From a virus, in the IMG/VR virus record IMGVR_UViG_3300030099_004033, positions 1 to 21,962 of that record: a stretch of DNA of 21,962 nt. One strand, written 5' to 3'. Made by a program: the position numbers and the translations under genes. The notes below the pieces were generated by a model that saw only the letters and a program-made list of their open reading frames with translations, did no database searches and was not told where the DNA came from. Shown here piece by piece: positions 6,962-20,402 of this stretch (positions are counted from its first letter, which is position 1; the number at the start of each line of letters is the position of its first letter).

Positions 6962-7893
6962 TAAATAATTCCTCTACCTTTTGATGAATCAGGGTCTAAT
7001 TTGTTCATCATATTATACATGGCACGTGGGCCACCAGCGTTTTCTACTGCTTTGGCAGTAAATACAAATTCACCGTCGCTCAACATAGCAGGGATCTTAT
7101 CATCTTTTGGTCCACCTGGACCATCAATCATTCCTAATCTTCTAGGAAAAAATGCTGTTATACCTGGATTATCTTCAATGGTGTCCATCATCTCAGGTCC
7201 TGACATATCAGGTGTTAAACCTGGAACACCAGTAGCTTGTCCACCCATGTTCATGGTAGGTGGCATAACTTGTCTTAATGGTGTTTCTGGTATCATTCCA
7301 GAGACTCTGTTTATCTGATCAAATGGATTATTAGCAGATGCACCCATGGGACTATCAGATGAACCAAATTGACCCATGTCTTGTTCTGGTGGGCCACCAG
7401 CCATCAAGGCTGCTATACCGCCTGTTTTACTAGTTACTGGTACAGCTTTTCCGCTTTCATCTGCCTCTGTTCTTATTGGTTTTCCCTCTTCATCAAACTT
7501 ATCAAAAGTTTCACCTGTTCTAATATCGGCTATTAAATCACCAAATTGTTCTTTTTTTAAAGGGCTACCGCCAAACTCACTGCCAAACTTTATATCTGTA
7601 GCTTTTAATCTGTTAAGAAAGTCATTGTACATCCTCATCGCGGTGTCTCTATCCTTGCTAAATTGATCAAAACCTTTAGCTGCTATAGCTCCTGAACCTA
7701 TAAGTCTGAAAAGGTCGCCAATTCCACCACCAGTTGTGTCACCAAAAAGAGAAGCACCTAATGAAGGAAAACCTTTACTAAATAAAAATGGTGTGCCGAG
7801 AGCCGCTGTTGCCAGAGGGTTGTCACCAGTAAAACTGCCAATATCTCGTACGGCTTTTGATAATCTGTTTGTAATACTCTTTAGTCCTAACAT
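6961..7893 (-). CDS. Phage protein with C-terminal IPAMLSDGEFV motif
   Basis: The first gene of the leftward operon, 310 residues, starts at ATG 7891-7893 behind a strong AGGAG Shine-Dalgarno. A Gly/Ala-rich hydrophobic region spans residues 25-75. A proline/methionine/glycine-rich linker covers about 165-235. The C-terminus carries IPAMLSDGEFV at 267-277 followed by AVENAGGPRAMYNMMNKLD. The pattern GPG...D.IPAxLSDGEFVxxAxAVxxAG is a widespread phage motif that I know from marine phage proteins and from the ends of some tail proteins. Its biochemical role is not established as far as I know. A virion or tail-assembly role is inferred from the operon. This gene carries the promoter-proximal position behind the divergent region at 7894-8019. 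Confidence 0.78.
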   Translation of the reverse strand: MLGLKSITNRLSKAVRDIGSFTGDNPLATAALGTPFLFSKGFPSLGASLFGDTTGGGIGDLFRLIGSGAIAAKGFDQFSKDRDTAMRMYNDFLNRLKATDIKFGSEFGGSPLKKEQFGDLIADIRTGETFDKFDEEGKPIRTEADESGKAVPVTSKTGGIAALMAGGPPEQDMGQFGSSDSPMGASANNPFDQINRVSGMIPETPLRQVMPPTMNMGGQATGVPGLTPDMSGPEMMDTIEDNPGITAFFPRRLGMIDGPGGPKDDKIPAMLSDGEFVFTAKAVENAGGPRAMYNMMNKLDPDSSKGRGII

Positions 7894-7941
7894 AATCTCC
7901 TATTGCAATTTATGTGATTGTTAATGGCAAGAAGGCTAAGC

Positions 7942-7971
7942 TTGAAATAAAAAGCCAATTAATTCTATATT
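7942..7971 (+). promoter_or_regulatory. Sigma70-like promoter for the rightward operon
   Basis: TTGAAA (7942-7947), an 18-base spacer and TATATT (7966-7971) form a plausible sigma70 promoter. Initiation would fall near 7978, about 40 bases before the ATG at 8020. A GAGGA Shine-Dalgarno lies at 8008-8012. The match is weaker than that of the opposing promoter, with which it overlaps by two bases at the -10 boxes. Confidence 0.42.
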
Positions 7972-7998
7972 TATAGGCAAAATATTGCTATATGACAA
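7970..7998 (-). promoter_or_regulatory. Sigma70-like promoter for the leftward virion operon
   Basis: On the minus strand, TTGTCA (7993-7998) is followed by a 17-base spacer and TATAAA (7970-7975), close to the -35/-10 consensus. Transcription would start near 7963 and give a leader of about 70 bases before the ATG at 7893. The -10 box overlaps that of the rightward promoter. This is predicted by eye only. Confidence 0.55.
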
Positions 7999-8019
7999 TA
8001 GATATTTGAGGATAACCAA

Positions 8020-8697
8020 ATGCAGAAAGAAGATAAATCGACTAGTATTAATTTTCATGCGATTAGACCTTTTGGTCCCACCATTTTACAAGGAAAACTA
8101 CCTAATAATTTAATTAAGTTATTAGACGATCGTGCTACAACTTTATTAAATGATGAAAAATTGTCAAAAAAATATGATCATTCAATGAATCTAGCAGGTA
8201 ATGTTCAAAAAGAAGTTCGATATCCGATGGAGGATTTAGATGGTCAAAACTTTAAACCTATAATTAATGCTTTAGGTCAAATAGTAAAAAAATATATTTC
8301 AATACCTCCAGCTTCAGACACAATATCTCCTGAGTTTGTAGGCTCAATGGTTATTGAATCTATGTGGGTTGTTAGTCAATGGGCTGGAGATTTTAATCCT
8401 TTTCACATACATCAAGGTGAACTATCAGGAGTGATTTATTTAAGAGTGCCGCCTAGTTTAAAAGATGAATACGCAAAAGAAGATCATTACCCATGTGTCG
8501 GTGACATCGTTTGGCATTCAGGTCAAGCAGCTACTTTTAGTGGCCACAAGCATCAGGCTACTCCAGAGGTAGGAGCAATATATCTTTTTCCATCTTGGTT
8601 ATCACATGGAGTTTACCCTTTTAGAACTAAAAACGAGGAAAGAAGATCGGTTTCTTTTAATTTACATTTAAAGAAAAAAGAACCTATTAATGATTAA
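8020..8697 (+). CDS. 2OG-Fe(II) oxygenase-like protein, PF13759/TIGR02466 type (paralogue A)
   Basis: A 225-residue protein whose ATG at 8020 has GAGGA at 8008-8012. The C-terminal half has the double-stranded beta-helix signature of non-haem Fe(II)/2-oxoglutarate oxygenases. HIH at 129-131 sits inside WAGDFNPFHIHQGELSGV; a distal His is at 196 in LFPSWLSHGVYPFRT; Arg 208 or 209 precedes SFNLHL. The first ligand pair reads HxH rather than the classical HxD, as is common in this family. A segment KEDHYP (153-158) is shared with the protein at 15951-16586. Residues 15-69 match residues 7-61 of that protein at about 32 of 55 positions by hand count. The substrate is unknown. A virion-protein or cell-surface hydroxylase is possible. 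Confidence 0.85.
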   Translation: MQKEDKSTSINFHAIRPFGPTILQGKLPNNLIKLLDDRATTLLNDEKLSKKYDHSMNLAGNVQKEVRYPMEDLDGQNFKPIINALGQIVKKYISIPPASDTISPEFVGSMVIESMWVVSQWAGDFNPFHIHQGELSGVIYLRVPPSLKDEYAKEDHYPCVGDIVWHSGQAATFSGHKHQATPEVGAIYLFPSWLSHGVYPFRTKNEERRSVSFNLHLKKKEPIND

Positions 8698-8965
8698 TAT
8701 TTATAAAACTCCGATGGTGAGAATTACGTGGCTAGACGCAAGAGACATGGAGACTGGTTGGTTGCCAATAAAAGATATAGTAAATGCTCCGTTGGCCGTG
8801 TGCCAAGAAGTTGGGTACATGGTTGTAAACAATGATGATAAAATAGTTATTATGAGATCATGGTGTGTTGACAAGGATGACAATCATGGTGGCGGTGCAA
8901 TAGCGATACCTAGAGGTTGGGTTAGAAAAATAGAATATTTAAAAGTAGAGTATGCAACACAATAG
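8690..8965 (+). CDS. Small conserved phage protein, function unknown
   Basis: A 91-residue protein with ATG at 8690 overlapping the preceding stop by 8 bases. An internal ATG at 8714 (MVRITWLDARD) is an alternative start, since neither site has a strong Shine-Dalgarno. The body looks like a small beta-rich fold: VRITWLDA, then EVGYMVVNNDDKIVIMRSW, and a C-terminal IAIPRGWVRKI. This layout (short W-D segment, conserved Cys/Gly-Y-x-V segment, IPRG near the end) recalls small proteins common in phages and recorded as hypothetical. No catalytic residues stand out. It lies between an oxygenase and a glycosyltransferase and is overlapped by the latter. Its function cannot be inferred. Confidence 0.7.
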   Translation: MINIYKTPMVRITWLDARDMETGWLPIKDIVNAPLAVCQEVGYMVVNNDDKIVIMRSWCVDKDDNHGGGAIAIPRGWVRKIEYLKVEYATQ

Positions 8966-9740
8966 AATTTTTATAGGAACTCCTTGTTATGGTGGTATGA
9001 TTAGCGCTGACTATTTTAAGAGTTGTATGCAACTTATAGCTTTAGCTGCTACTAAAAAAATTGAACTTCAGTTTGGAACGATTGGAAATGAGTCTTTAAT
9101 TACAAGAGCTAGAAATACTTTGGTGCAATTATTTATGGACGGAGATTATTCTCATTTATTATTTGTTGACGCTGATATAGCTTTCAATCCTGAATCAGTT
9201 TTTAAAATGTTAGATTTTGACAAAGATGTAACAACAGGCATTTATCCAAGAAAAACAATAGATTGGATTAAGGTAAAAAAACGTATACAAAATAATCCTA
9301 ATATACCAGAGGACGAACTCTTAGCCTCTTCATTGCAATATAATCTTAATGTTAAAAATCCAAACAAAATAGAAATGAAACAAGGTTTTATAGAAGTTTT
9401 AGATGGACCAACTGGTTTTATGCTAATTAAAAGAAAAGTTTTTGAACAATTAGCAGAGCATTATCCTGATTTAAAATTCATACCAGATCAACATATCAAT
9501 CAATCTCACGACACAGAATTTAATTATCACAAAACCTCACAATGGAATTATACATTTTTTGACACCATGATTGATCCAAAAAGTAAAAGGTATTTGTCAG
9601 AAGATTATGCGTTTTGCAGATTATGGCAGAATTTAGGAGGTAAAATATATGCAGATATTACAAGTGGGATGACTCATTATGGTAATTATGCTTTTAAGGG
9701 CAACGTTGGAACTCAATTCTTGCCTCAAAACGATAAGTAA
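8952..9740 (+). CDS. GT-A fold glycosyltransferase-like protein
   Basis: A 262-residue protein whose ATG at 8952 overlaps the preceding gene by 14 bases. The N-terminus IFIGTPCYGG is the nucleotide-sugar beta-strand of GT2-type folds. Residues 69-75 (LLFVDAD) carry a DxD-like metal site, D73 and D75. SEDYAFCRLW (216-225) corresponds to the acidic catalytic region seen in this class. His 242 (MTHYG) is a likely C-terminal metal or acceptor-side residue. The enzyme would transfer a sugar from a nucleotide donor; donor and acceptor are not predictable. Proteins of this kind are frequent in marine phages, sometimes near tail genes. Modification of virion proteins or of host surface glycans is the usual inference. 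It is followed after 14 bases by the large tail-type gene. Confidence 0.75.
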   Translation: MQHNRIFIGTPCYGGMISADYFKSCMQLIALAATKKIELQFGTIGNESLITRARNTLVQLFMDGDYSHLLFVDADIAFNPESVFKMLDFDKDVTTGIYPRKTIDWIKVKKRIQNNPNIPEDELLASSLQYNLNVKNPNKIEMKQGFIEVLDGPTGFMLIKRKVFEQLAEHYPDLKFIPDQHINQSHDTEFNYHKTSQWNYTFFDTMIDPKSKRYLSEDYAFCRLWQNLGGKIYADITSGMTHYGNYAFKGNVGTQFLPQNDK

Positions 9741-9754
9741 TTTATTATAAAACC

Positions 9755-11599
9755 ATGCAATTAGTAGATCTTAAATTTCAACCTGGCATAGATAAGCAAG
9801 ACACTGCGTACTCAGCAGGGGATCAACGTAAATACATTGATTCTGATTTTGTAAGATTTCATTACGGAAAGCCAGAAAGATGGGGAGGTTGGGGGTTTTT
9901 ACCAAACCCAAATAAAACAGTTGTAGGTGTGGTAAGAGATACTCACTCATGGGTAGCATTAGATGGAACTAGATATTTAGCTCTTGGAACTGATAGAAAA
10001 TTATATATTTATTCTGAAGGAGCTATTCACGATATTACACCCATAAGAGAAACAGCTTCTTTAACAAATCCATTTACAACTAATGGCACCACAACCGTAA
10101 GTGTAAACGACGCTGCTCATGGCGCATCAGTTGGTGATTTTGTTACATTTGATTCTTTTTCAACATTAGACGGATTAGATATGAATCAAGAGTTTGAGAT
10201 AACTAGTGTCACAGATGCTAGCAATTATAAAGTTACTCATACAAGCACAGCCTCTGGTTCAACATCAGGCGGTGGTGGATCTGGCAATGCTAAATATCAA
10301 ATATCCACAGGCCCAGCTACATCAACTTATGGTTATGGGTGGGGAACATTATCTTGGGGTGAAAGCACTTGGGACACAGCTAGATCTTCATCTAACGTTG
10401 TTGTTGCTGCACGAAATTGGTCATTAGATAATTTTGGTGAAGACTTAATAGCTACTGCTTTAAATAATAAAACTTTTATATGGGACACATCCTCTGGGAC
10501 AGGAACAAGAGCTACTGCTTTATCAAATGCTCCAACTGCTTCAAGATTTAGTTTAGTATCTACCGACACTCGTCATTTATTAATTTTTGGAACAGAAACC
10601 ACCATCGGAGATTCTACAACACAAGATGATTTACTTCTTCGTTTTTCTGATAGAGAAGACGCAACTGATTATACACCTGTTGCTACAAACGAGGCAGGAT
10701 CTCTTCGCATATCGGATGGATCAAGAATTATAGGAGCCGTAAAATCAGCAGGTCAAATTTTAGTTTGGACAGATACCTCTTTGCATGGTTTGCAATTTGT
10801 AGGCACGCCTTTTACTTTTGGTCTTCGTCAACTAGGAGCAAATGCAGGTTTAATAGCACAGCACGCAGCCATTGAGGTAAATGGTGTAGCTTACTGGATG
10901 TCGGATGATGCCTTTTATTTATACGATGGTGTTGTGAAAAAAATGCCTTGTTCTGTACAAGATTTTGTTTTTGATGACATAAGTTATACTAATAAAAATG
11001 ACATAGCTGTCGGGTTAAATACAGCTTACAATGAAATAATTTGGTATTATCCTTCCGCAAATGCTTCTCAAATAGACAGAGCTGTTGCTTATAATTATCT
11101 TGAAGGGACTTGGTACACTATAACTTTAGCAAGAACAACATGGCTTGGTGCTTATGTCTATGAGTCTCCCATAGCTACAGAATACAACTCTTCAACGACA
11201 GCAAACGTATCAACAATTTTAGGTTTAACAGCAGGAGCTTCTTTTATTTATGAACATGAGGTAGGAAACAATCAAGCTAACGGATCAGCCATTTCTGCTT
11301 TTTTACAAACTGGGTCAGTAGAGATTGCTGATGGTGATCAATTAATGTCTATAAGCAAATTAGTACCAGATTTTGACAATCTTACAAATACAATGACTGC
11401 TACACTTACCTTAGAACAATATCCTCAATCATCTTCAAATGTCACAACGAGTGGTAGTATAACTAGCACTACTGAAAAAATTAATGTAAGAGGTAGAGGT
11501 AGAGCTGTAAAAATAAAATATGAGACTAACAGTGTGGGTGATACACCTTGGAGACTTGGATCACAAAAGATACAAATTAGACCTGATGGTAGGAGATAA
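9755..11599 (+). CDS. Large phage tail / DNA-stabilisation-like protein
   Basis: A 614-residue beta-rich protein starting at ATG 9755; no good Shine-Dalgarno is visible. The N-terminus contains FQPGIDKQDTAY and FVRFHYGKPERWGGW (32-46), a layout I associate with phage tail hub or packaged-DNA stabilisation proteins. Residues 104-178 look like an inserted beta domain (AHGASVGDFVTF, then FEITSVTDASNYKV) ending in a Gly/Ser linker. Residues 193-206 (YGYGWGTLSWGEST) are Trp/Gly-rich, like the repeats of the protein at 20403-21533. Later blocks (VNGVAYWMSDDAFYLYDGV, and residues 380-460) suggest a beta-propeller-like body. A structural role is likely; the specific assignment (stabilisation versus tail) is tentative. 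Confidence 0.72.
   Translation: MQLVDLKFQPGIDKQDTAYSAGDQRKYIDSDFVRFHYGKPERWGGWGFLPNPNKTVVGVVRDTHSWVALDGTRYLALGTDRKLYIYSEGAIHDITPIRETASLTNPFTTNGTTTVSVNDAAHGASVGDFVTFDSFSTLDGLDMNQEFEITSVTDASNYKVTHTSTASGSTSGGGGSGNAKYQISTGPATSTYGYGWGTLSWGESTWDTARSSSNVVVAARNWSLDNFGEDLIATALNNKTFIWDTSSGTGTRATALSNAPTASRFSLVSTDTRHLLIFGTETTIGDSTTQDDLLLRFSDREDATDYTPVATNEAGSLRISDGSRIIGAVKSAGQILVWTDTSLHGLQFVGTPFTFGLRQLGANAGLIAQHAAIEVNGVAYWMSDDAFYLYDGVVKKMPCSVQDFVFDDISYTNKNDIAVGLNTAYNEIIWYYPSANASQIDRAVAYNYLEGTWYTITLARTTWLGAYVYESPIATEYNSSTTANVSTILGLTAGASFIYEHEVGNNQANGSAISAFLQTGSVEIADGDQLMSISKLVPDFDNLTNTMTATLTLEQYPQSSSNVTTSGSITSTTEKINVRGRGRAVKIKYETNSVGDTPWRLGSQKIQIRPDGRR
11591..11596 (+). promoter_or_regulatory. Shine-Dalgarno that fixes the start of the 55-residue gene
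   Basis: AGGAGA immediately precedes the TAATG junction at 11597-11601, but its spacing to the ATG at 11599 is only two bases. It lies within the end of the upstream gene. Close spacing plus the overlapping stop implies coupled translation. Confidence 0.45.
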
Positions 11600-11766
11600 T
11601 GGCTAAAATTACTATAACAAGATTGCCTAACGCTACTCCAGAGTATGAAGCTGCACAATTTGATCAAATGATAAGATTACTTGATCAAATTATTTTTTTG
11701 TTAAATACTAACTTTCAACAAGATTTAAAAGAAGAATCAGAATCGGAGAGTTTTTTCCTTGGCTAA
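11599..11766 (+). CDS. Small conserved marine-phage protein, 55 residues
   Basis: ATG at 11599-11601 shares a base with the TAA of the large upstream gene, and the frame closes with TAA at 11764-11766. The protein begins MAKITITRLPNATPEYEAAQ and continues with FDQMIRLLDQIIFLLNTNF, an amphipathic helix with repeated Gln/Asp/Ile. It ends in an acidic tail ESESESFFLG. Short proteins with this layout (RLPxATPxY, then FxQMIRxL.QIxFxLNT) recur beside small virion genes in uncultivated marine phages as I recall. It overlaps the next gene by 8 bases. It probably has a small structural or assembly role, but no function is established. Confidence 0.72.
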   Translation: MAKITITRLPNATPEYEAAQFDQMIRLLDQIIFLLNTNFQQDLKEESESESFFLG

Positions 11767-12142
11767 TACATTTAGAGGACCTATGTTGGATGTCACTACG
11801 ACAGACCTAACAACTTTAATAACTGTGCCAACAGCTGATCCTGGTGCTACGCCACCCGTTCCGCCAACTACTATAATAATTAAATCTTTTATTGTTTGTA
11901 ATGACTCTGGTAGTGCTACACTTCTGGATGTACAAACAGTTAGAAGTTCTGCAACATTCAAACAATTTCACCAAAAAAGCATAGCTGCAGGAACGACGGT
12001 AGATTTGTTAAATGAACATGACGGAATTACTAGAGGCATGATTGTTTTGCAAGAATCTGACGTGTTAAAAGTACAAGCTAATGCAGCTAATCAAGTTCAC
12101 ATAACTGTAGCTGATATGGAGATTACGAAAGGACAATTGTAA
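11759..12142 (+). CDS. Small phage structural-like protein with TTG start
   Basis: 127 residues starting at TTG 11759-11761, giving (M)ANTFRGPML. GGAGAG lies 9-10 bases before, and the resulting N-terminus matches the MANxF beginning usual for this class. An internal ATG (residue 9) is the alternative. The protein is beta-rich: DVTTTDLTTLITVPTAD, then TIIIKSFIVCNDSGSATLLDVQ and TVDLLNEHDGITRGMIVLQESDVLKVQANAAN. Proteins of this type (trimeric-looking beta sandwich with ConsDSG-type strand) are usually placed among phage head/tail accessory proteins. The location between tail-type genes supports this. The role is inferred. The gene overlaps the 55-residue gene by 8 bases. Confidence 0.7.
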   Translation: MANTFRGPMLDVTTTDLTTLITVPTADPGATPPVPPTTIIIKSFIVCNDSGSATLLDVQTVRSSATFKQFHQKSIAAGTTVDLLNEHDGITRGMIVLQESDVLKVQANAANQVHITVADMEITKGQL

Positions 12143-12736
12143 TTGCAACTGCAATCTTTATTTATTACACCTATATTTATAACCGAAGTGAAAGGGCATG
12201 GTCATCTTATTGATAGACTTTATGAAATAAAATTAAAAGATGAAAAAGGCATGCCTCGATCAAACATCGGGGGTTGGCATAGTGATGATGAGCTTTACAA
12301 AGAAGAAGAATTTAAAAGCACCGTAGCAGATATATTATATAATGCAAAAGAGTGTTTTAAACATTTAGATGTTCAAGATAAATACTCTCCAGAAATGACT
12401 GGTCTTTGGGGTATGATAAACCCTCCTGGATCAAGAAACAATATTCATACCCATCCTTACAACTACCTATCGGGCGTGTATTATCTTAAAGTACCCCCTA
12501 AAAGCGGTAATTTAGTGTTTTTAGAGCCTAAACCACAGGCAGAGGTGTTATCACCTCCTAAAAATGAAAATGCTTCTATACACCTAGCACACAGTGTTTC
12601 TTGGGAGCCAAAAGAGAATACCTTGATTTTTTTCCCATCATGGTTACAACATGAAGTACAATTTAATAGTTCTAAAGAAGATAGAATTATTTTAAGTTTT
12701 AATATAAATTGGAGAGAAGAAGATGCCAATAGTTGA
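12143..12736 (+). CDS. 2OG-Fe(II) oxygenase, PF13759/TIGR02466 type
   Basis: A 197-residue protein starting at TTG 12143-12145, directly after the TAA of the preceding gene, with AAAGGA about 9 bases upstream. It has the compact, canonical form of the family. LFITPIF is at the N-terminus. GGWHSDD is at 43-49. NPPGSRNNIHTHPYNYLSGV lies around residues 93-111 with His 102 and His 104 as putative Fe ligands. FFPSWLQHEV follows with His 170, then Arg 181 and SFNINW. The usual HxD is replaced by HxH, as in other members here. It is not closely similar to the 8020 and 15951 proteins outside the core, so it looks like a separate lineage. The substrate is unknown; peptidyl hydroxylation of a virion or host protein is possible. 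Confidence 0.86.
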   Translation: MQLQSLFITPIFITEVKGHGHLIDRLYEIKLKDEKGMPRSNIGGWHSDDELYKEEEFKSTVADILYNAKECFKHLDVQDKYSPEMTGLWGMINPPGSRNNIHTHPYNYLSGVYYLKVPPKSGNLVFLEPKPQAEVLSPPKNENASIHLAHSVSWEPKENTLIFFPSWLQHEVQFNSSKEDRIILSFNINWREEDANS

Positions 12737-12974
12737 AAATGCAGAACAAATAGGAACTGTAACTTTAGAAGACGGTAGAGTTATTCCTAGATACAAAGTA
12801 AAAACTGAAACAACCTTAACAAACATTGATACAGGTCAAGAGTATGAATCTGAAGCTGCTATGCAAGCTGATATAGATGATCCAAATACTTCAACTACTG
12901 CTGAAAAAATCAGAAGAGATGTTAAAGTATTTGCTCCGTCATTAAAAGATATGTTAGGACAAACTCCTAAGTAG
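12723..12974 (+). CDS. Small conserved phage protein, 83 residues
   Basis: ATG at 12723 overlaps the previous gene by 14 bases and follows GGAGAG. Visible features are VTLEDGRVIPRYKVKTET, NIDTGQEYESEAAMQADIDD and a C-terminal TAEKIRRDVKVFAPS. The TGQEY.SE..AQADIDDPNT segment is a pattern I recall from small marine-phage proteins near tail genes. It is acidic with no membrane segment and no evident catalytic residues. The stop at 12972-12974 overlaps the stop of the opposing gene by 8 bases, closing the rightward gene run. The function is unknown; a structural or assembly helper is the conservative reading. Confidence 0.68.
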   Translation: MPIVENAEQIGTVTLEDGRVIPRYKVKTETTLTNIDTGQEYESEAAMQADIDDPNTSTTAEKIRRDVKVFAPSLKDMLGQTPK

Positions 12975-13158
12975 AGTTTAAATTAAATTTATCTTTGTTA
13001 TTATTAGAAATATTTACTTTTTCTCCTGGGGTAGATTGACAACTACATTTTTCTGTATGTCTTACATGATCTCTTTTTACTGCCAAAAGCTCTGAGTGAA
13101 ATTTACTTACCTTGTCTGCAAGATAAGCAATCGCTTTACTTACTTCATCATTTTTCAT
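12967..13158 (-). CDS. Lone small minus-strand protein, 63 residues
   Basis: The start is taken at ATG 13156-13158 because AAGGAG (13165-13170) lies six bases upstream. A longer form to 13206 would add 16 residues. The protein is MKNDEVSKAIAYLADKVSK..., with a helical N-terminal half and heptad-like spacing, then HTEKCSCQ (a CxC pair) and a polar Asn/Lys-rich tail. There is no membrane segment. It is the only minus-strand gene between the two rightward operons and converges with the 83-residue gene. The pair of closely spaced Cys could bind metal or form a disulfide; that is speculation. A regulator or a host-takeover peptide would fit the isolated position, but no family is recognised. Confidence 0.55.
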   Translation of the reverse strand: MKNDEVSKAIAYLADKVSKFHSELLAVKRDHVRHTEKCSCQSTPGEKVNISNNNKDKFNLNST

Positions 13159-13288
13159 ATTTTTCTCCTTTATTTTTAATTTTAGGTGGGTACTTAATTT
13201 AAGCATAATTTTTAAGTCTGCAACAAATTTTTTTTAATTGTTTTCTTGACAAAATTTTTATGATAAAAAAAGCCTAGAAAGGAAAAAA
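13159..13288 (+). other. Divergent intergenic region between the small minus gene and the 13289 operon
   Basis: This 130-base very AT-rich stretch must serve both directions. On the plus strand a perfect TTGACA occurs at 13246-13251, but no -10 box lies at 16-18 bases. TATGAT occurs at 13259-13264 with a poor upstream partner, TTGTTT. On the minus strand, TTGCAG followed after 16 bases by TAAATT is a weak promoter candidate. The SD for the 13289 gene (AAGGA) lies about ten bases before its ATG. No hairpin with a convincing U-tract was found. Confidence 0.4.
13165..13170 (-). promoter_or_regulatory. Shine-Dalgarno deciding the 13158 start
   Basis: On the minus strand AAGGAG lies six bases before ATG 13156-13158. 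The upstream ATG at 13206 lacks a comparable element, which favours the shorter 63-residue product. Confidence 0.7.
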
Positions 13289-13918
13289 ATGGCACATCAG
13301 TTACTTTGGTATAATACTCAAATGCCTGATCAGTTTGTTAAAATTTTAGCTGAAGATCTATCATTAAATTTTGATAACACATTGGTATCATCAAAAATAA
13401 ATGAGAAAGGTGAAGAAAAACACGAATACAGAAAATCTAAAAATGCTTGGATTGAAAGCTCCCATTGGAGCGCAGGTTTGTTATGGCATTACATAATGTT
13501 AGCTAACAGAACAAATTTTAATTATGATTTACAAAGAATGGATCATGAGTGTATGCAATATACTCATTATGGTGAGGGGAGCTACTATCATTGGCACGTG
13601 GATGGTGGTATAGAAACACAATACAAACCTTTATCAGTTGATCGTTCGTACAATATTGATACTCTTGTTCAAGATCACATAGTAAAAAGTAGTGACCTTG
13701 TAAGAAAACTTTCTTTTGTATTGCAGTTAACTAATCCAGATGAATATGATGGAGGTGAGTTACAAATAGAAGATCCTTTAGGTGCTGTTATGTCTGCTCC
13801 TCGTACAAAAGGCACTTTAATTTTTTTTGATTCTAGGACAAGACACCGAGTATCAAAAGTCTCTAGAGGTTTACGTAAAAGTTTAGTTGGTTGGGTTGTA
13901 GGGCCTATGTGGAAATGA
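13289..13918 (+). CDS. PKHD-type 2OG-Fe(II) dioxygenase
   Basis: A 209-residue protein with an AAGGA Shine-Dalgarno before the ATG at 13289. The catalytic domain is textbook: HVD at 103-105 within YYHWHVDGG gives the HxD Fe ligands. GGELQIEDP (155-163) is the following beta-strand. TLIFFDSRTRHRV (176-188) gives distal His 186, and GLRKSLVGWVVGP (194-206) provides 2-oxoglutarate-binding Arg 196. This matches the PKHD / prolyl-4-hydroxylase alpha-like group. The N-terminus (1-90) is variable. The enzyme would hydroxylate a protein or small-molecule substrate using O2, Fe(II) and 2-oxoglutarate. It heads a coupled operon of eight genes; its stop overlaps the next start as ATGA. Confidence 0.9.
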   Translation: MAHQLLWYNTQMPDQFVKILAEDLSLNFDNTLVSSKINEKGEEKHEYRKSKNAWIESSHWSAGLLWHYIMLANRTNFNYDLQRMDHECMQYTHYGEGSYYHWHVDGGIETQYKPLSVDRSYNIDTLVQDHIVKSSDLVRKLSFVLQLTNPDEYDGGELQIEDPLGAVMSAPRTKGTLIFFDSRTRHRVSKVSRGLRKSLVGWVVGPMWK

Positions 13919-14094
13919 CTGAATATTTTAATTTACAAATTTGGGAGAAGGTTGAAAAAATAACAAAATTAAAATTAGACAAAAATGATGTTTTTAAATC
14001 AGCAAACCTCATATTAAAAAATAATAAAAGTGATTTAAATTTAGCAAAAGAAATAATTAAAACTCAATACAATTTTGAGGAGACTATAACATGA
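13915..14094 (+). CDS. Small unknown protein, 59 residues
   Basis: The start at ATG 13915 overlaps the dioxygenase TGA (ATGA), which is preferred over the in-frame ATG at 13891 lying inside that gene. The product is Lys/Asn/Ile-rich and helical-looking (MTEYFNLQIWEKVEKITKLK, then NLILKNNKSDLNLAKEIIK). It has no Cys, no signal peptide and no transmembrane segment. Its stop overlaps the next start, ATG 14091, again as ATGA. I recognise no family. Its coupled position implies co-expression with the dioxygenase, perhaps as a partner or substrate carrier, but nothing in the sequence proves it. Confidence 0.5.
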   Translation: MTEYFNLQIWEKVEKITKLKLDKNDVFKSANLILKNNKSDLNLAKEIIKTQYNFEETIT

Positions 14095-14588
14095 ATTTTG
14101 GTTTAAAACCCTACCCTAAAATAGGAGTTAACAAAAATGTAAATGAAAAAACAGAAAATAAGATTTGCCATGATGGTGTTATATTTCACGGAGATCCAGT
14201 AAGTAAATTACAAGATAGAATTAAAAGAAGACAAGGTAAAGAAAAAATATATGGAATATTCCAAGGCTGTTTTTATGAAGATGATTTAATTTTTTCTAAT
14301 ATGTATTATGGTAATAATAAGGAGGCTATTGCTTTCATAGTAACAGATTTAAAAAATAGAATTTTTTTAATTAGAGAAAATGGTAATCTACAAAAAAATG
14401 ATTTATGGAAAAATTTTAATTTAACCAACTTATTTGGGGATGTAAAAACAGGAATTAGTCATGTGTCCTTAGACTCATCTTCAACTGAAAATGGTTCAGA
14501 TGTAAACTTTTTGGGCTTTTATGCTAATGAAAATAATGATATTAAAAATGAAAAATCTATATGTGTAGTAAAAATAAATGAAAAATAA
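14091..14588 (+). CDS. Unknown 165-residue protein in the oxygenase operon
   Basis: ATG 14091 follows a strong GAGGAG at 14077-14082 and overlaps the previous stop (ATGA). The protein looks mostly beta in its middle: KIYGIFQGCFYEDDLIFSNM, then AIAFIVTDLKNRIFLIREN. A later Ser/Asn-rich part (GISHVSLDSSSTENGSDVNF) precedes NNDIKNEKSICVVKINEK. I recognise no family. Composition is extreme for the window: bases 14101-14160 have 15 G+C of 60. It overlaps the next gene by 11 bases. Neighbours suggest participation in the same pathway as the dioxygenases. Alternatives include a receptor-like or inhibitor protein. Confidence 0.6.
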   Translation: MNFGLKPYPKIGVNKNVNEKTENKICHDGVIFHGDPVSKLQDRIKRRQGKEKIYGIFQGCFYEDDLIFSNMYYGNNKEAIAFIVTDLKNRIFLIRENGNLQKNDLWKNFNLTNLFGDVKTGISHVSLDSSSTENGSDVNFLGFYANENNDIKNEKSICVVKINEK

Positions 14589-15264
14589 ATATTTAAAATT
14601 ATTACAAAAATTTGATTTTGAAGTTCCAAATTTTAAAAAATATAAATCAGGAAATATTGAGATATTACAAGAGAAGAAAACTTTAAATTGGATTTTAAGA
14701 ATAAATGGCAAAGAAGCTAGAACTGTAAACCCTACTTATTTTAATTGTTTTCAAAATATGGCTATGGCTGACTTAGCGTACGGAGACGTGAATGTTTACG
14801 GATATAATTTAGGAACATTACCTAATTGGCTTGTTCATAAATCGCATGTAAAAAAAGTTACTGTTGCAGATTTATACGAAGATATTTTTATGTATCATGA
14901 AAGTCACAATAATAAATTACACAAAAAAATTAACACAATAGAAAGTAATTCATTTATGTTTGGATCAGCTTGTGATGTTTTGTTGCTTGATTGTTATCGA
15001 AATAGAGAGCCATTTGAAATGGAACAACAAGATTTTATTAACATGATAAAAAATGATATTCATTTAGTGGATCATAAAGTGTTGTGGTTTTGGCCTTTGG
15101 AATATTTGTTAACACTTGAACACAATCAAGGTAAAGACGTTGAAGAAACTTACAACAAATTTAAAGAACAATTACCTACATTGCCTGATTTAGTCAGAGG
15201 CGATATAGATTATTATCTTTCTATGTTTCATATAGATTTTGTTCCTTTAAGAAAAAAAGATTAA
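14578..15264 (+). CDS. SAM-binding / spermidine-synthase-like protein, degenerate motif I
   Basis: A 228-residue protein starting inside the preceding gene (11-base overlap) with no evident Shine-Dalgarno, so translation is probably coupled. DVNVYGYNLGTLPNWLVHKS (70-89) resembles the nucleotide-binding strand and loop of class I methyltransferases and spermidine synthases, with the Gly loop loosened to GYNLGT. VKKVTVADLYEDIFMYHES (91-109) would hold the acidic ribose-binding residue (D98), and DVLLLDCY (133-140) is like the later acidic strand. The C-terminal part is helical. The fold call is moderate. It could be a methyl- or aminopropyltransferase, or a catalytically inactive relative. It is directly followed by the DUF6445-like gene. 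Confidence 0.55.
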   Translation: MKNKYLKLLQKFDFEVPNFKKYKSGNIEILQEKKTLNWILRINGKEARTVNPTYFNCFQNMAMADLAYGDVNVYGYNLGTLPNWLVHKSHVKKVTVADLYEDIFMYHESHNNKLHKKINTIESNSFMFGSACDVLLLDCYRNREPFEMEQQDFINMIKNDIHLVDHKVLWFWPLEYLLTLEHNQGKDVEETYNKFKEQLPTLPDLVRGDIDYYLSMFHIDFVPLRKKD

Positions 15265-15954
15265 ATGTATTACCCTACTTACTTCTTAGATAAATTTTTT
15301 GAAGAACCACATAAAATAAAAGAATTAGGATTGTCTTGTGATTACGATTTTTCTGATAGAAATTATCCAGGAGGCAGAACGGCTGCCTTACATACTTTTA
15401 ATGATGAATTAAACAATTATGTTCAAAATAAAATTATGAGTTTAATTTATGGATCAGAGACCACAAAGTCAGACGAATCATTTAGATGGTGGGCGTCTTC
15501 TTTTTTTCAATTAATAAGACCAGAAGATGTTAAAAGTAAGGATGGCAGTATTTTAAATAAAGGTTGGATACACGTAGATCAAACACCTTTGACTGCAATA
15601 ATATATTTGACTGATGATGAGAATACAGGCGGCACATCTTTATATAGAATTAAAGGTAAAGAATATTTTGATAATAAGACTGCTATAGAGGAAGCTAAGA
15701 TATCAAAAGATTTTAATATAACAAAACAAGACAATGAAAAATATAATGAATATCAAGAGAGAAACAGATCTTACTATGAAGAAATAGCATCATTTAAAAA
15801 TAAATTTAATTCAATCTTAGCTTTTGATGGATCAAATCCACACAAGGCTGACTTAAATGTAATAAGTAATACGTATAGATTAACTTTAATTACTTTTTTT
15901 TACAAAGTATATGCACCTTACCACCCAGTAAATGAATTAAGGAGAACAGTATGA
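15265..15954 (+). CDS. DUF6445-like 2OG-Fe(II) oxygenase-fold protein
   Basis: A 229-residue protein whose ATG follows the preceding TAA immediately (TAAATG); no clear Shine-Dalgarno. FRWWASSFFQLI (73-84) precedes GWIHVDQTPLTAIIYL (100-115), in which His 103 and Asp 105 form an HxD pair. ENTGGTSLYRIK (119-130) is the strand with GGT.LYR typical of the DUF6445 group as I recall it. A distal His lies at 193 (NPHKAD) and Arg 205 in YRLTLITFFYK. The distance between the halves (long helical insert 131-180) also suits that group. The Fe(II)/2OG site therefore seems complete, so a hydroxylase is likely. The substrate is unknown. Confidence 0.72.
   Translation: MYYPTYFLDKFFEEPHKIKELGLSCDYDFSDRNYPGGRTAALHTFNDELNNYVQNKIMSLIYGSETTKSDESFRWWASSFFQLIRPEDVKSKDGSILNKGWIHVDQTPLTAIIYLTDDENTGGTSLYRIKGKEYFDNKTAIEEAKISKDFNITKQDNEKYNEYQERNRSYYEEIASFKNKFNSILAFDGSNPHKADLNVISNTYRLTLITFFYKVYAPYHPVNELRRTV
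15939..15944 (+). promoter_or_regulatory. Shine-Dalgarno for paralogue B
   Basis: AAGGAG lies six bases before ATG 15951, within the end of the preceding gene. It is one of the few strong ribosome sites inside the cassette and suggests increased translation of this oxygenase. Confidence 0.65.
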
Positions 15955-16586
15955 ATGAGAGTGTAATATTTAGACCTTTTGGTCCGTCCATGATGAAAGG
16001 GTCTTTGTCACCCGATATTGTAAAATTGTTGGATGACACAGCATCCGAGGTTTTAAATAGTGAAGAGTTGTCTAAAAAATTAGATTGGTCGCACAACCTA
16101 GCGGGTAATGTAAAAAAAGAATGTAGAATGCCTGACAACTGGCTTAATAGCGAACAAGCAAAACCTTTTACTTTGTATCTTGCTAATCAAGTAAAAAAAT
16201 ATCTCGAAGATCCACAAGTGCAAGCGTGTTTTGCAGATGGAAAGCAGCCTTATGAACACATAACCATGACTGCAGCTTGGGTAGTATCACAATGGGCTGG
16301 AGACTTTAACCCTTCACATTTACATGATGGCATATTGTCTGGTGTTTGTTATTTAAGAATGCCTGACCTTTCAGAAGAAATGTCCAAAGAGGATCATTAC
16401 CCTAGTGCAGCTAGAATAAGTTGGTTTTGTAATCAACCTAGTAATTTAAGTTTATACAAGTTTGAATATCTACCACAAGTAGGAGATTTTTTTCTTTTTC
16501 CTTCATGGGTGCCTCATACTGTATATCCTTTTAGAACACAAAATGTTGAAAGAAGATCATTATCATTTAACGTATATCTAAAATGA
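15951..16586 (+). CDS. 2OG-Fe(II) oxygenase-like protein, PF13759/TIGR02466 type (paralogue B)
   Basis: A 211-residue protein that starts with an ATGA overlap and a strong AAGGAG. It parallels the 8020 protein: RPFGP, KLLDD, NLAGNV, WVVSQWAGDFNP, KEDHYP, FPSW, VYPFRT and ERRS..SFN appear in the same order. Putative ligands are His 123 and His 125 (SHLHDG), distal His 189 (SWVPHTV) and Arg 201/202. The family normally runs near 200 residues, so it is full length. Sequence between 90 and 105 differs from the other copy, suggesting different substrate contacts. It is followed at once by another oxygenase gene (ATGA). The role is inferred as hydroxylation; substrate unknown. Confidence 0.86.
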   Translation: MNESVIFRPFGPSMMKGSLSPDIVKLLDDTASEVLNSEELSKKLDWSHNLAGNVKKECRMPDNWLNSEQAKPFTLYLANQVKKYLEDPQVQACFADGKQPYEHITMTAAWVVSQWAGDFNPSHLHDGILSGVCYLRMPDLSEEMSKEDHYPSAARISWFCNQPSNLSLYKFEYLPQVGDFFLFPSWVPHTVYPFRTQNVERRSLSFNVYLK

Positions 16587-17272
16587 AAAAAAATCTTTTT
16601 GATCATTATGATCAATTAAATATTAAATTAAATGACATTTCTAATTCTTTACACGATAAAGAAAACAAATTTGAAAAAATTAAAATTTTGTTTGCTGATC
16701 CAATAGGTATTTACAAATATGAAAACTCATTTACACAAATTGAAAAAGATTTTATTAATAGTGCAACATATAATAAAAATCATTCAAATCTAATTTCTAA
16801 TGATAATAATGTAATAGATAATCTTGCTTTAATAAACGTTAAAAACTTTATTAACAATTCTTTAAAAGATTATTTTAAAAATGTTTTTATACCAAAAAAC
16901 AATGTTAATATTTACATTACAGAATCATGGCTAAATAAAACGACAGAGGGTAAATATCATCATATACATAATCACGCAAACAGCATTATTAGTGGAGTTT
17001 TTTATTTTAATACAATAAAAAATGACAAAATAACATTTTATAAAGACAAACCAAATGCACCATATTTAAGAATAGAACCACAATCTTTTAACAATTACAA
17101 CTCAAGCTTACACTCTATTAATGTAGTAAAAAAACAACTAGTCCTGTTTTCATCTAATATAGAACATGAAGTACCAAAATTTAATGATAACGATGAGAGA
17201 ATATCTTTAGCGTTTAATACTTTTGTAAAAGGGGATATAAATAACACGTTTACTACTAAATTAAAATTATGA
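16583..17272 (+). CDS. Divergent PF13759-like 2OG-Fe(II) oxygenase
   Basis: A 229-residue protein beginning at an ATGA overlap and ending in another. Residues 33-47 (IKILFADPIGIYKYE) resemble the family's opening strand. HHIHNHANSIISGVFYF (126-142) aligns with the IHTHP..YLSGVYYL block of the 12143 protein, giving His 129 and His 131. VLFSSNIEHEV (187-197) has distal His 195, and DERISLAFN (204-212) provides Arg 206. It is Lys/Asn/Ile-rich: bases 16621-16680 contain 10 G+C of 60, lower than the other oxygenases. The N-terminal 30 residues are extra. It is probably an active but fast-evolving member, or an acquired copy. Confidence 0.75.
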   Translation: MKKNLFDHYDQLNIKLNDISNSLHDKENKFEKIKILFADPIGIYKYENSFTQIEKDFINSATYNKNHSNLISNDNNVIDNLALINVKNFINNSLKDYFKNVFIPKNNVNIYITESWLNKTTEGKYHHIHNHANSIISGVFYFNTIKNDKITFYKDKPNAPYLRIEPQSFNNYNSSLHSINVVKKQLVLFSSNIEHEVPKFNDNDERISLAFNTFVKGDINNTFTTKLKL

Positions 17273-17592
17273 AAAATATTGATTTGTTAAATTTTTTAAA
17301 AAAATTAAGTTATAAAAAAATAAATATTCCTAATTGTTTAGTTCACTACGGACACATAAAATCGATATGCATATTACCAAAATCCTCCGCTTATGTTTCT
17401 AACGGAAAAATACAAGTTTTTACAAATGATGAAAAACATTTAACTAAAGATTGGTCTAGACATTTAATTGATTTAACAGCTGAAAGCGCAGAAATTAAAA
17501 ATGAAACTAATAAAAATATATTTGCAATATTACAAGAGTCTTTAATACTTTCAAAAAATTATACTGATATTGTTTTTACTCTTAAAAATTAA
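17269..17592 (+). CDS. Unknown 107-residue protein ending the cassette
   Basis: ATG 17269 overlaps the preceding stop (ATGA). The protein begins MKNIDLLNFLKKLSYKKINI and contains CLVHYGHIKSICILPKSSAY and NGKIQVFTNDEKHLTKDWSR, suggesting a small beta fold with an amphipathic C-terminal helix. It has no signal peptide or membrane segment. I do not recognise a family. Its stop overlaps the stop of the opposing gene by four bases (17589-17592), so the two transcription units collide with no room for a terminator. A role in the same pathway is inferred from coupling alone. Confidence 0.55.
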   Translation: MKNIDLLNFLKKLSYKKINIPNCLVHYGHIKSICILPKSSAYVSNGKIQVFTNDEKHLTKDWSRHLIDLTAESAEIKNETNKNIFAILQESLILSKNYTDIVFTLKN

Positions 17593-18092
17593 ACAGCTGA
17601 CCAAGTTTTATTAGTAGAGTCAAATTTGTAAACAGGGGAACTTTCTCCTACAGGGGTTGCTCTCCATTCTAAAGTTTCTTCATTCCAAAAAACAGTTAAA
17701 GATCTAGCATCAGATGTAGGTTCAACTCTTTGTGCGTCTGTTGGTTGTGTTTTTGGTGCCTCGTATAAACATGTTGTTTCATTTAAAACCCAACTAGCAA
17801 AGTGAGGATAAACACCTGTGGTTGGTTGAATAAATGCGTCTCTTGCAGCATCATAAGTACCACCAATTTTTGCATAATTTTTTCTAAAAGGAGTTCCTCC
17901 CAAAGCATGTGTATTGCCTCCAGTATTAAATGAAGTTTGTTTCCAATTAGCATGTCCAGAAAAATCCTCTAACCATTGTCTGCCCAATTCTTCAGTTTCT
18001 GTTCCTGTGTTATTAGGATCTAAAATTTTATTATCAATCACTTCAACAGCTAAAACAATATTATTACTATCAAGTTTTGCAAAATGAGCCAT
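17589..18092 (-). CDS. Small marine-phage fibre-associated protein (MAHFAKLD type)
   Basis: A 167-residue protein starting at ATG 18090-18092 in a TAATG junction. It opens MAHFAKLDSNNIVLAVEVID and contains FRKNYAKIGGTYDAARDAFI (69-88) and SWVLNETTCLYEAP (100-113). These are hallmark segments of a small protein found beside tail fibres in marine phages, including cyanophages, as I recall. The function is not settled; suggestions include fibre tip, chaperone or accessory tail protein. The C-terminus (LTVFWNEETLEWRAT) is the usual final strand pair. Position immediately after the glycine-rich adhesin supports a fibre-related role. The stop is convergent with the 17269 gene. Confidence 0.82.
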   Translation of the reverse strand: MAHFAKLDSNNIVLAVEVIDNKILDPNNTGTETEELGRQWLEDFSGHANWKQTSFNTGGNTHALGGTPFRKNYAKIGGTYDAARDAFIQPTTGVYPHFASWVLNETTCLYEAPKTQPTDAQRVEPTSDARSLTVFWNEETLEWRATPVGESSPVYKFDSTNKTWSAV

Positions 18093-19066
18093 TATGAAAC
18101 CTTATATCTAATTTTAACGATACCTGATCCACCATTACCGCCACCGTGAGGTGCATGGCCTCCACAGCCGCCACCGCCACCGCCAGTATTAGATGAAGCG
18201 CTTTGAGCTGCGTTGTTGCTTCCGCCATTACCGCCGCCGCCAGTTCCTCCGCCCTGAGATCTACTACCGCCACCACCAGCATAAGTTGTGCTATCATCCC
18301 AAGCTAAACCATCGCCACCTGCACCATTACCATCAGTATTACCAGCTTCGCCTTTTCCGCCACCGCCACCGCCAATACCTGTAGTTCCAGGACCACCTGA
18401 GTTACCTTGATCAGCCGTTCCAGATCCACCGCCGTTGCTTCCGCCACCGCCGTTGTTTCCGCCACCGCCTCCAGAACCGCCACTACCACCACCACTTGCG
18501 TGAGGTGGGTGAGGAGCACCAAAACCACCGCCTACTGCGTTTAATGATCCTGTTGCAAAAGTTGAGTTGCTTCCTGAACTGCCTGGAGTTGTCTCTACGG
18601 TTGGAGCTCCAGCTCCGCCACCACCTATTGTGATAGCCGCTCCTCCAGTCGTTGGTGAATTATTAGTCACAACTAGCATACCACCAGCTCCGCCACCACC
18701 AGCACCTGAATTTGATCCGCCACAACTACCTCCACCGCCGCCTCCAGCTACAACTATATAGTTATACCCTTGGTTGCCTGCGGTTGTTATTGTAAAAGTT
18801 CCGTTGCTTGTAAATGTATGAAATTTGAAATCACCAGAGGTAGATGTAGTACCCCCAGTAGCTGCCATAAATACGACATTTTCTGTCCCATAAAATTTAG
18901 ACATTGCTAATGCTCCAGACGAAGGCACTGCTCCATTTGTTCCAGAGGCTGTAGCGGGAACTAATCCTGCTCCTGCATAATACTCACTTAAACTTATAGG
19001 GCTTGTTCCACCAAACTCTGTTTGAAGAGCAGTAAACGTTAAAGCACCTGATGTTGGTATTGCCAC
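18092..19066 (-). CDS. Glycine-rich tail fibre adhesin
   Basis: A 324-residue protein starting at GTG 19064-19066, chosen because AGGAGG lies six bases upstream and no better start precedes. Residues 1-62 hold two short related motifs: IPTSGALTFTALQTEFGG and VPSSGALAMSKFYG. Residues 70-106 form a beta segment (GDFKFHTFTSNGTFTITTAG) leading to YNYIVVAGGGGGG. Residues 107-314 are about half glycine with Ser/Asn. The end GGSGIVKIRYK is the conserved terminus of glycine-rich phage tail proteins. Such regions form polyglycine-helix sandwiches in phage adhesins, and the long Gly tract probably mediates receptor contact. It is followed by the fibre-associated small gene. Confidence 0.82.
   Translation of the reverse strand: MAIPTSGALTFTALQTEFGGTSPISLSEYYAGAGLVPATASGTNGAVPSSGALAMSKFYGTENVVFMAATGGTTSTSGDFKFHTFTSNGTFTITTAGNQGYNYIVVAGGGGGGSCGGSNSGAGGGGAGGMLVVTNNSPTTGGAAITIGGGGAGAPTVETTPGSSGSNSTFATGSLNAVGGGFGAPHPPHASGGGSGGSGGGGGNNGGGGSNGGGSGTADQGNSGGPGTTGIGGGGGGKGEAGNTDGNGAGGDGLAWDDSTTYAGGGGSRSQGGGTGGGGNGGSNNAAQSASSNTGGGGGGCGGHAPHGGGNGGSGIVKIRYKVS
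18125..18748 (-). repeat. Low-complexity GC-rich glycine-coding tract
   Basis: Long runs of Gly codons (GGC, GGT and GGA) interspersed with Ser, Asn, Thr and Ala. Bases 18421-18480 have 41 G+C of 60, against 10-20 of 60 in other sampled lines. The spurious open frames on both strands here are side effects of this composition. Confidence 0.85.
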
Positions 19067-19068
19067 GT

Positions 19069-20358
19069 TTAACCTCCTATTTTATCTACTTTTGTTTTTA
19101 ACTCTTTGATTGCTTCAATTAAAATACCAACCATATTACCATATGCAACAGATAAATACTCTTGTTTATCGTGTATGACTTCAGGTAGATGTGGTTGTAC
19201 TTCTTGTGCGATAACACCTGTGCCATCAACACCATCTCTTTTAAAAGTTACACCACGCATTTTAGAAACTTTTTCTAAAGCATCTTCAATTGTTTTAATA
19301 TCTGTTTTTAGCCTTTCATCAGAAAAGGCTGTTACATCATTATTAAATGTTGCTGCTCCAGCACCAGACATATCAAGAGTTAAAGCGGTAATTGTTGAAC
19401 CACCATCTTCACCTTTAAAAATTATATCTTTGTCATTTACGTTTGATGCAATAACAAAATCACTTGATGAATTTGTAAATGTACCTATCGCTGTTCCATC
19501 ATCTTTGAATTGAACATCACCACCGTTAGCATCTAAAATTATATCGCCCTCAACATCTAAAGTTAAATCTCCAGATGATAAATCTATTTCAGTGCCGTCA
19601 ATTGTAATATTGTCTACTGTAATACCAGCGTCCGCATCAACAACTCCGTTGAAGGTTGCTTTACCTGCATCAGACATATCTAATGTCAATGCAGTAATAC
19701 CTGCTCCACCATCGTCTCCTTTTATTACAAAATCTTTATCCTGAACTGCTGTAGTAATTACTAAGTCACCAGAATTTTGAGTTGTTAAATTGGCTACGCC
19801 AATGTTTGCTAATTTAAGATCCACTTGGTCGTCAGTGCTTGCTGTTATGGTTGTATCTGCATCAGCATCTAAAGTTAATGTTTGACCATTTAAATCAACT
19901 GGAGCAGTTAATGTTCCTGGTCCTGCAAAAACGTCAAACCAATTTGTTCCATCTGTAGCCACTAATCTAGTAGCACCATTTTCAATAGTTAAGGTATTAC
20001 CAGATGCTCCAAGTCTTGCTGTCATAGCGTATGGACCAGAAGATCCAGAATCTGTTGTAGCGTTAGTAATTAAATAAATTTTTTGTGTAGCTGGAAATTG
20101 AGCTATTCTTATAGCACTGTGCGCACCTGTTAATCTAATGTGAGCGTTTCTAGCTTGGTTATTTGCTTGTGATTGAGGTCCATCTGCATTTGTAAGAGTA
20201 GTCACAGCCGCATCGCCACAAGCTACATTTACAACTCCTGCAATTGAAAACTCTAATGATTGAGAAAAATTATTATTTGTGATTGTACCCCAAGTTCCTG
20301 AATTTTCTCCAGTTCCTTGAAGCTCTATTCTCAAACTTGTCGAATACGTTGAACTCAT
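19069..20358 (-). CDS. Tail fibre with C-terminal S74 intramolecular chaperone
   Basis: A 429-residue protein from ATG 20356-20358 with AGGAGAT before it. N-terminal residues 1-140 (LRIELQGTGENSGTWGTITN, then YLITNATTDSG) are a common phage tail-fibre start. Residues 150-340 are beta-helix-like with two related blocks (196-238 and 298-339). Residues 345-425 are the endosialidase-type chaperone (Peptidase_S74): SDERLKTDI at 346-354, then GVIAQEVQPHLPEVI and a helical end EAIKELKTKVDKIGG. In the family this domain trimerises the fibre, then cuts itself off at the Ser of that motif. Its presence indicates a trimeric receptor-binding or depolymerase-like fibre. No depolymerase residues could be identified. 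Confidence 0.92.
   Translation of the reverse strand: MSSTYSTSLRIELQGTGENSGTWGTITNNNFSQSLEFSIAGVVNVACGDAAVTTLTNADGPQSQANNQARNAHIRLTGAHSAIRIAQFPATQKIYLITNATTDSGSSGPYAMTARLGASGNTLTIENGATRLVATDGTNWFDVFAGPGTLTAPVDLNGQTLTLDADADTTITASTDDQVDLKLANIGVANLTTQNSGDLVITTAVQDKDFVIKGDDGGAGITALTLDMSDAGKATFNGVVDADAGITVDNITIDGTEIDLSSGDLTLDVEGDIILDANGGDVQFKDDGTAIGTFTNSSSDFVIASNVNDKDIIFKGEDGGSTITALTLDMSGAGAATFNNDVTAFSDERLKTDIKTIEDALEKVSKMRGVTFKRDGVDGTGVIAQEVQPHLPEVIHDKQEYLSVAYGNMVGILIEAIKELKTKVDKIGG
19073..19078 (-). promoter_or_regulatory. Shine-Dalgarno deciding the GTG start of the glycine-rich gene
   Basis: AGGAGG on the minus strand six bases before GTG 19064-19066. It overlaps the last codons of the upstream fibre gene. 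It is the strongest ribosome site in the fibre block. Confidence 0.75.
19342..19467 (-). repeat. Second copy of internal fibre repeat
   Basis: Codes residues 298-339 (SSDFVIASNVNDKDIIFKGE, then ITALTLDMSGAGAATFN). It is a diverged repeat of the 196-238 block, ending just before the S74 chaperone. Confidence 0.7.
19645..19773 (-). repeat. First copy of internal fibre repeat
   Basis: Codes residues 196-238 of the S74 fibre (SGDLVITTAVQDKDFVIKGD, then ITALTLDMSDAGKATFN). It matches the second copy in order and spacing. Confidence 0.7.
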
Positions 20359-20367
20359 AATATCTCC

Positions 20368-20397
20368 TATATAAAGTTAAAATTGAAAGTTTGTCAA
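20368..20397 (-). promoter_or_regulatory. Possible promoter ahead of the S74 fibre gene
   Basis: Minus strand TTGACA (20392-20397), an 18-base spacer, then TATATA (20368-20373). Initiation near 20361 would leave only about three bases before the ATG and exclude the AGGAGAT site, so a leaderless transcript or a chance match must be considered. Confidence 0.3.
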
Positions 20398-20402
20398 AAC
20401 TT

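Follow-up and report, generated by a model that had tools for sequence, protein, structure and literature searches.

A tail-adjacent island of six 2-oxoglutarate/Fe(II) oxygenase-like genes in a marine phage, probably a podovirus related to HTVC023P

Multi-copy genes for 2-oxoglutarate/Fe(II) (2OG-Fe(II)) oxygenases have already been published for marine phages (PMC9602691, PMC9599517). They occur in T4-like cyanophages (PMC3037559), with 24 copies in S-SCSM1 (PMC9602691), and HTVC023P-type phages are reported to hold eight non-orthologous copies near each other, with partners named 'ferrochelatase' (PMC9599517). Here we analyse the 21,962-base IMG/VR virus record IMGVR_UViG_3300030099_004033, positions 1-21,962 (hereafter the window), in which six oxygenase-like genes lie between positions 8020 and 17272. 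The locus is a variant of this feature of marine phages, which is already known though still unexplained.

The window resembles the HTVC023P-type pelagiphages (PMC9599517) in that related podoviruses hold several non-orthologous 2OG-Fe(II) genes near one another, together with a recurrent partner gene. In the annotated HTVC023P record, gp65-67 and gp71 are located between the fibre genes and the gene of a stabilisation protein (STAB). The passages of PMC9599517 consulted describe neither block transfer nor fixed core copies and call the partner ferrochelatase, whereas here two divergent phages share a block and two copies are invariant. T4-like cyanophages, like the window, combine PF13759 and PF13640 genes in many copies per marine phage, but have large genomes; the window is a podovirus-like fragment that holds six within 9.3 kb, four of them in one block. 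The HTVC008M genes gp34-gp40 hold phrog_274, PF13759, DUF6445, phrog_274 and methyltransferase members beside baseplate genes, so that PF13759 adjoins DUF6445 as in the window; HTVC008M is, however, a myovirus and its gene order differs. As far as the literature consulted shows, four points are new: the two invariant copies, the joint occurrence of the whole block and a fibre-associated gene in more than one phage, the DUF6445 fold and the relabelling of partner families.

Families and active-site residues of the six oxygenases

All six open reading frames (ORFs) were found on the plus strand, at 8020-8697, 12143-12736, 13289-13918, 15265-15954, 15951-16586 and 16583-17272 (hereafter named by their first position), and their family matches are far above chance, with E-values of 1e-14 to 1e-24. 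Four match PF13759 (Pfam cut-off 27 bits) with 69.1 (8020), 86.7 (12143), 62.4 (15951) and 69.2 bits (16583), covering the profile from position 1 or 2 to 101 of 101; a search of the full window returned exactly these four. PF13640 (2OG-FeII_Oxy_3) is matched by 13289 with 55.0 bits (cut-off 27; positions 1-97 of 98), and DUF6445 (PF20043) by 15265 with 56.3 bits (cut-off 24; positions 16-204 of 224). An initial annotation, made from the DNA alone, had proposed these three classes as four PF13759-like, one PKHD-like and one DUF6445-like protein, and every member indeed exceeds its Pfam cut-off. The PHROGs assignments, phrog_81 four times plus phrog_61, agree with those of Pfam; the PHROGs label 'minor coat protein' on the family of 15265 found no support. 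The TIGR02466 cut-off of 62.5 bits is passed by 12143 (120.4 bits) and not reached by 8020 (51.1), 15951 (43.7) or 16583 (53.9). Similarly, 13289 (best 53.7 bits) does not reach the cut-off of 143 for the YbiX-type PKHD equivalog, and is predicted to be PKHD-like, not a YbiX orthologue.

The Fe(II)/2OG signature, which the initial annotation had read as complete in all six, was recovered in two forms. The four PF13759 proteins display HxH, not HxD, followed by the distal His and an Arg late in the sequence (HIH129/131, H196 and R208/R209 in 8020; HTH102/104, H170 and R181 in 12143), and both 13289 (H103, V, D105, H186) and 15265 (H103, D105, H193, R205) display HVD...H...R. Of 107 non-redundant relatives in the PF13759 set, 105 retain the first His, 98 the second (7 have D or E instead), 104 the distal His and 85 the Arg; the ligands of 8020 are kept in 48 of 48 sequences. 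The putative metal and 2OG residues are intact in all six proteins and conserved in relatives, and profiles and residues together form the basis on which the PF13759 and PF13640 members are predicted to be oxygenases. The solved PF13759 structures 2RG4 and 3BVC, bacterial proteins deposited without function, match the PF13759 set at E 1e-25 to 1e-27 and share its HxH motif. The first motif of this family has a His where other 2OG oxygenases have Asp or Glu, which suggests a possible three-His iron site.

DUF6445 is not designated a 2OG family by Pfam. An AlphaFold2 model of 15265, built from 33 sequences, has a pLDDT of 90.9 and was compared with solved structures by Foldseek/VIA-align, with Z scores of 13.8 for PHD2, 13.7 for PiuC, 13.6 for P. 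putida P4H and 13.4 for both 2RG4 and the PKHD protein 3DKQ. The nearest solved structures include the protein prolyl hydroxylases PHD2, P. putida P4H, viral collagen P4H and OGFOD1. By hhalign, 15265 matches the PKHD set with 95% probability and ligands in register, and H103, D105, H193 and R205 are kept in 33 of 33 DUF6445 sequences. Model fold, profile alignment and kept ligands together place the sixth protein with the other five: its predicted structure has the 2OG-Fe(II) oxygenase double-stranded beta-helix fold with HxD...H...R in register, as the initial classification had implied.

Core copies, an exchangeable block and copy number in relatives

A scan of IMG/VR with the stabilisation protein (9755-11599) identified 80 relatives at 82-90% identity. 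Their island is flanked by the tape-measure-like gene on one side and the fibre genes on the other, and the count of oxygenase-like genes took in the phrog_274-like, X169 and 'ferrochelatase'-labelled families, which were defined by profiles made for this analysis and by the HxD...H motif. The 16 islands of the same lineage that are complete on one contig hold a median of 6 oxygenase-like genes (range 3-12), so six, which had initially been thought unusual, is an ordinary number for the lineage, and we rejected the window as an outlier; such a routine count in related genomes is what the initial annotation had named as its refutation. HTVC023P-type contigs can be denser still, as in L200 with 10 such genes within 6,961 bases, and their copies usually lie between tail-fibre and stabilisation genes. 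Curated Pfam profiles over 37 records agree in outline: 36 of the 37 contain PF13759, with as many as 9 matches in one relative (G020), while HTVC008M has 14. The 12.5-kb island of this relative (L054, record G020) holds twelve oxygenase-like genes, twice the number of the window.

The scaffold of the island is rigid in the relatives and consists of the 8020 orthologue, u8690, a glycosyltransferase-like gene, STAB, u11759, the 12143 orthologue and u12723; variable slots sit between these anchors. The 8020 orthologue stands beside the tape-measure-like gene in 35 of the 35 relatives that cover the place, and the 12143 orthologue is present in all 57 that cover its own. These two genes (c1 and c0, respectively) are lineage-core and fixed around the stabilisation-protein gene.

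The other four oxygenases belong to a block at 13289-17592, all on the plus strand, which also contains three proteins without known function and whose genes are contiguous or overlapping, with gaps of 0 to -28 bp, as would fit co-translation as one set. Its order is the PF13640/PKHD-like gene 13289, a protein without Pfam or PHROG family (14091-14588), an orphan protein (14578-15264), the DUF6445 gene 15265, the PF13759 genes 15951 and 16583, the latter divergent, and a small DUF6495-like protein (17269-17592; match below cut-off). A search with the orphan protein returned only two loci, L091 and L092. L091, with 85% nucleotide identity across 8968-21227, is closely related to the window. L092 is a divergent phage in which the nucleotide match is limited to window positions 13275-18247 (73%) and in which STAB has 45% protein identity and lies on the opposite strand relative to the block. 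It nevertheless has the same seven block genes in the same order, followed on the opposite strand by p7759, a fibre-associated protein (phrog_7759, E 6e-33; 17589-18092 on the minus strand of the window) that aligns along with the block at 67% identity. Block proteins share 54-79% identity between window and L092 (75% for 13289, with L092 4694-5323; 60% for 14091; 79% for 14578, the most conserved; 78% for 17269), against 32-45% for backbone proteins. Because gene order is kept while the block is so much more similar than the backbone, its transfer together with p7759 as one unit is the simplest reading.

The phylogeny places 15951 inside the c1 clade (support 100/99), on its own branch with the L091 and L092 copies, and 16583 on another branch, in a clade with the L092 copy (100/99). 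From this placement, 15951 is predicted to be an ancient paralogue of 8020 and to move along with the block. Tandem duplication was considered as the source and rejected, as the four PF13759 proteins do not group and 8020 and 15951 share a clade on separate branches; the tree thus argues that the array was built by acquisition and not by local duplication. It had been suggested that the six genes form a multi-step tailoring pathway. A multi-enzyme tailoring module is supported for 13289-17592, since its genes overlap and keep their order in a divergent phage as one unit; the six as a single set are not, two being core and four block genes.

Public labels may conceal related genes in such islands. 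The family labelled 'ferrochelatase' has HxD...H in 16 of 16 sequences, and the three that were scanned had no ferrochelatase match in Pfam; hhalign gave no support for it as an oxygenase, so that its relabelling is founded on the invariant HxD...H motif only. Examples are HTVC023P gp67 (L086 10295-10915), 023Pt_psg01 URG13120 and L048 7151-7762. For phrog_274 the label 'DNA endonuclease V' looks wrong, with HxD...H in 31 of 31 and the Arg in 29 of 31 sequences, and no match to the T4 DenV family of Pfam from three scanned proteins; its members HTVC008M gp34 and gp39 (L089 8779-9267 and 11114-11599) match PF13640 weakly or over the cut-off. Together with 'minor coat protein', these labels are suggested to hide further members, so that published counts are probably low. 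The X169 family (e.g. L021 8106-8615), which is near-core and present in about 50 relatives, has no Pfam match, displays HxD...H...R and aligns by hhalign to DUF6445 with 97% probability. Its gene is missing from the window and present in L091.

Association with tail genes and possible function

HTVC023P-like contigs repeat the order fibre, glycine-rich fibre, p7759, oxygenases and stabilisation gene; among annotated records, HTVC023P and 023Pt_psg01 share this neighbourhood, and HTVC008M has a similar one that adjoins its baseplate genes. 2OG genes occur at a density of 0.15-0.20 per kb up to 3 kb from p7759 and of at most 0.03 per kb farther than 5 kb away. Viral DUF6445 genes cluster with oxygenases, 53 of 80 loci having another within 2 kb. 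When these loci, selected regardless of fibres, were divided by oxygenase number, a fibre or STAB gene was found in 36 of the 43 with at least four oxygenase genes vs 4 of the remaining 37 (Fisher p 4e-11, which overstates the evidence because the loci are interrelated and of unequal lengths).

We tentatively read the island as a tail-linked, late-expressed tailoring array of an HTVC023P-related marine podovirus that acts on virion tail proteins or their glycans; substrate, activity and expression are what we infer, and the reading, the likeliest of those considered, seems to us plausible, if somewhat short of probable. The oxygenases would be made late, along with the tail genes, and would use Fe(II), O2 and host 2-oxoglutarate for the hydroxylation of residues in tail-fibre, p7759 or stabilisation proteins, or of glycans on them, possibly priming these targets for further decoration. 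Particles would then acquire a different surface chemistry when blocks are exchanged, and this would account for variable content at a fixed position. A wider and more doubtful proposal is that marine podoviruses have a modular 'particle chemistry' locus, in which swappable hydroxylase sets, with an occasional halogenase and carbamoyl- or methyltransferases, post-translationally decorate tail fibres, and adsorption is varied via enzymes as well as via fibre sequence. Tail-linked arrays with a fixed core and transferable blocks replace a vague metabolic idea by a testable one, namely modified virion residues. Searches of the literature gave no direct report of virion hydroxylation by phage oxygenases.

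Several observations weigh against action on the virion. The place next to the tail genes may simply be one that tolerates insertions, and 48 of 80 p7759 loci are without oxygenase. Oxygenase content correlates with fibre type as strongly for a distant slot (Jaccard 0.82 vs 0.46) as for the adjacent one (0.55 vs 0.24), so shared ancestry may suffice and the correlation is not used as evidence. Among the fold matches of 15265 are also SnoN, which acts on a small molecule, and PiuC, an oxygenase of iron uptake. The halogenase, carbamoyltransferase and methyltransferase in the slots also fit small-molecule or glycan chemistry.

The main rival, because of these accompanying enzymes, is tailoring of a small molecule or of a host-surface (outer-membrane) glycan instead of the virion, e.g. 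as a superinfection block, by the oxygenases in concert with carbamoyltransferases, halogenases, methyltransferases and glycosyltransferase-like proteins. Depending on the relative, the slots carry a carbamoyltransferase (L046, L069, L074), a methyltransferase (L084), a JmjC-like protein (L079), a tryptophan halogenase (L052, L080) or DUF6065 proteins, the families being Carbam_trans N and C, Methyltransf_24, JmjC_2, Trp_halogenase and DUF6065; several of these families are known to tailor natural products and sugars. The window, however, has neither a sugar-nucleotide nor a scaffold-building pathway, lacks the halogenase and carbamoyltransferases, and keeps its array fixed inside the tail gene region; we regard this rival as unlikely, though it deserves serious attention. 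The same fixed place, along with the presence in each island of 3-12 diverged enzymes drawn from several families, is left unexplained by a reprogramming of host metabolism through 2-oxoglutarate draw-down or altered iron/nitrogen signalling, as proposed for cyanophages (PMC3037559; repeated in PMC9602691); one copy would be enough for this, and we consider it improbable.

The highly variable content around a fixed scaffold, with a fibre correlation explained by shared ancestry, would also be expected of a hot spot gathering selfish or neutral cargo, in which oxygenases are over-represented and do not act on the virion. Active-site residues are, however, retained in nearly all copies and two genes are never lost, which argues for selection for activity and makes such a hot spot quite improbable. 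Least credible of all is DNA or RNA base modification or repair by AlkB/TET-like enzymes. It is suggested by the 'DNA endonuclease V' labels of public records on families that neighbour the island genes in relatives, and the 'ferrochelatase'-labelled family has a weak distal-motif match to a Tet-like dioxygenase (E 0.5). The best profiles are nevertheless PF13759, PF13640 and DUF6445, not AlkB or TET, the block is placed among tail genes, and the labelled proteins carry HxD...H...R, the three scanned matching PF13640 and not the T4 DenV family.

Other genes of the window and its relatives

Two conserved scaffold genes lie on the plus strand between 8020 and STAB, the small gene u8690 (8690-8965; phrog_25889) and the gene at 8952-9740. 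The latter belongs to phrog_1574 (E 5e-43), is found in 72 loci and is a possible GT-A glycosyltransferase; the initial call of a glycosyltransferase was not upheld, its matches to GT2 (20.6 of 23.3 bits) and Anp1 (20.8 of 28.8) being below the Pfam cut-offs and phrog_1574 having no assigned function. STAB (9755-11599, plus strand) is a tail/head stabilisation-type virion structural protein (phrog_3287, E 4.7e-81), 46% identical to the DSL-LC04 'stabilization protein' and 40-42% to those of HTVC023P/HTVC027P. The fragment yielded no PolA gene, and across 7800-18300 promoter and terminator patterns were no more frequent than in shuffled sequence.

The orphan block protein 14578 had been called 'SAM-like', a label that found no support: the protein has no match in Pfam, PHROGs, NCBIfam or PDB and no detectable relationship to the HTVC008M methyltransferase; its AlphaFold2 model, from three sequences only, has a pLDDT of 42. 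A small ORF of uncertain status (13891-14094, plus strand) overlaps both its neighbours, 13289 at its end and 14091 at its start. Beyond p7759 the minus strand encodes a glycine-rich tail-fibre-like protein (18092-19066; phrog_2295) and a fibre protein (19069-20358) that is kept beside the island in relatives and whose C-terminal sequence motif we take to be of the S74-like (intramolecular chaperone) family.

A genome-contig scan for a bacterial DUF6445 guild returned three loci only, two without clear context and one on a Pelagibacteraceae single-cell contig. The latter (L254, SAR11 single-cell genome AG-404-L13) is a phage-like contig of 62 kb that carries DUF6445 along with two PF13759 genes. 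Cyanophages, too, contain halogenase and carbamoyltransferase genes (PMC3037559). In loci related to the window, the N- and C-terminal parts of the carbamoyltransferase are on separate ORFs (L046 13652-15152; L074 5270-6319; L012 10244-11200), and the tryptophan-halogenase genes (PF04820) of the close relatives L052 (5699-7171) and L080 (3-1208) match with 351 and 241 bits.

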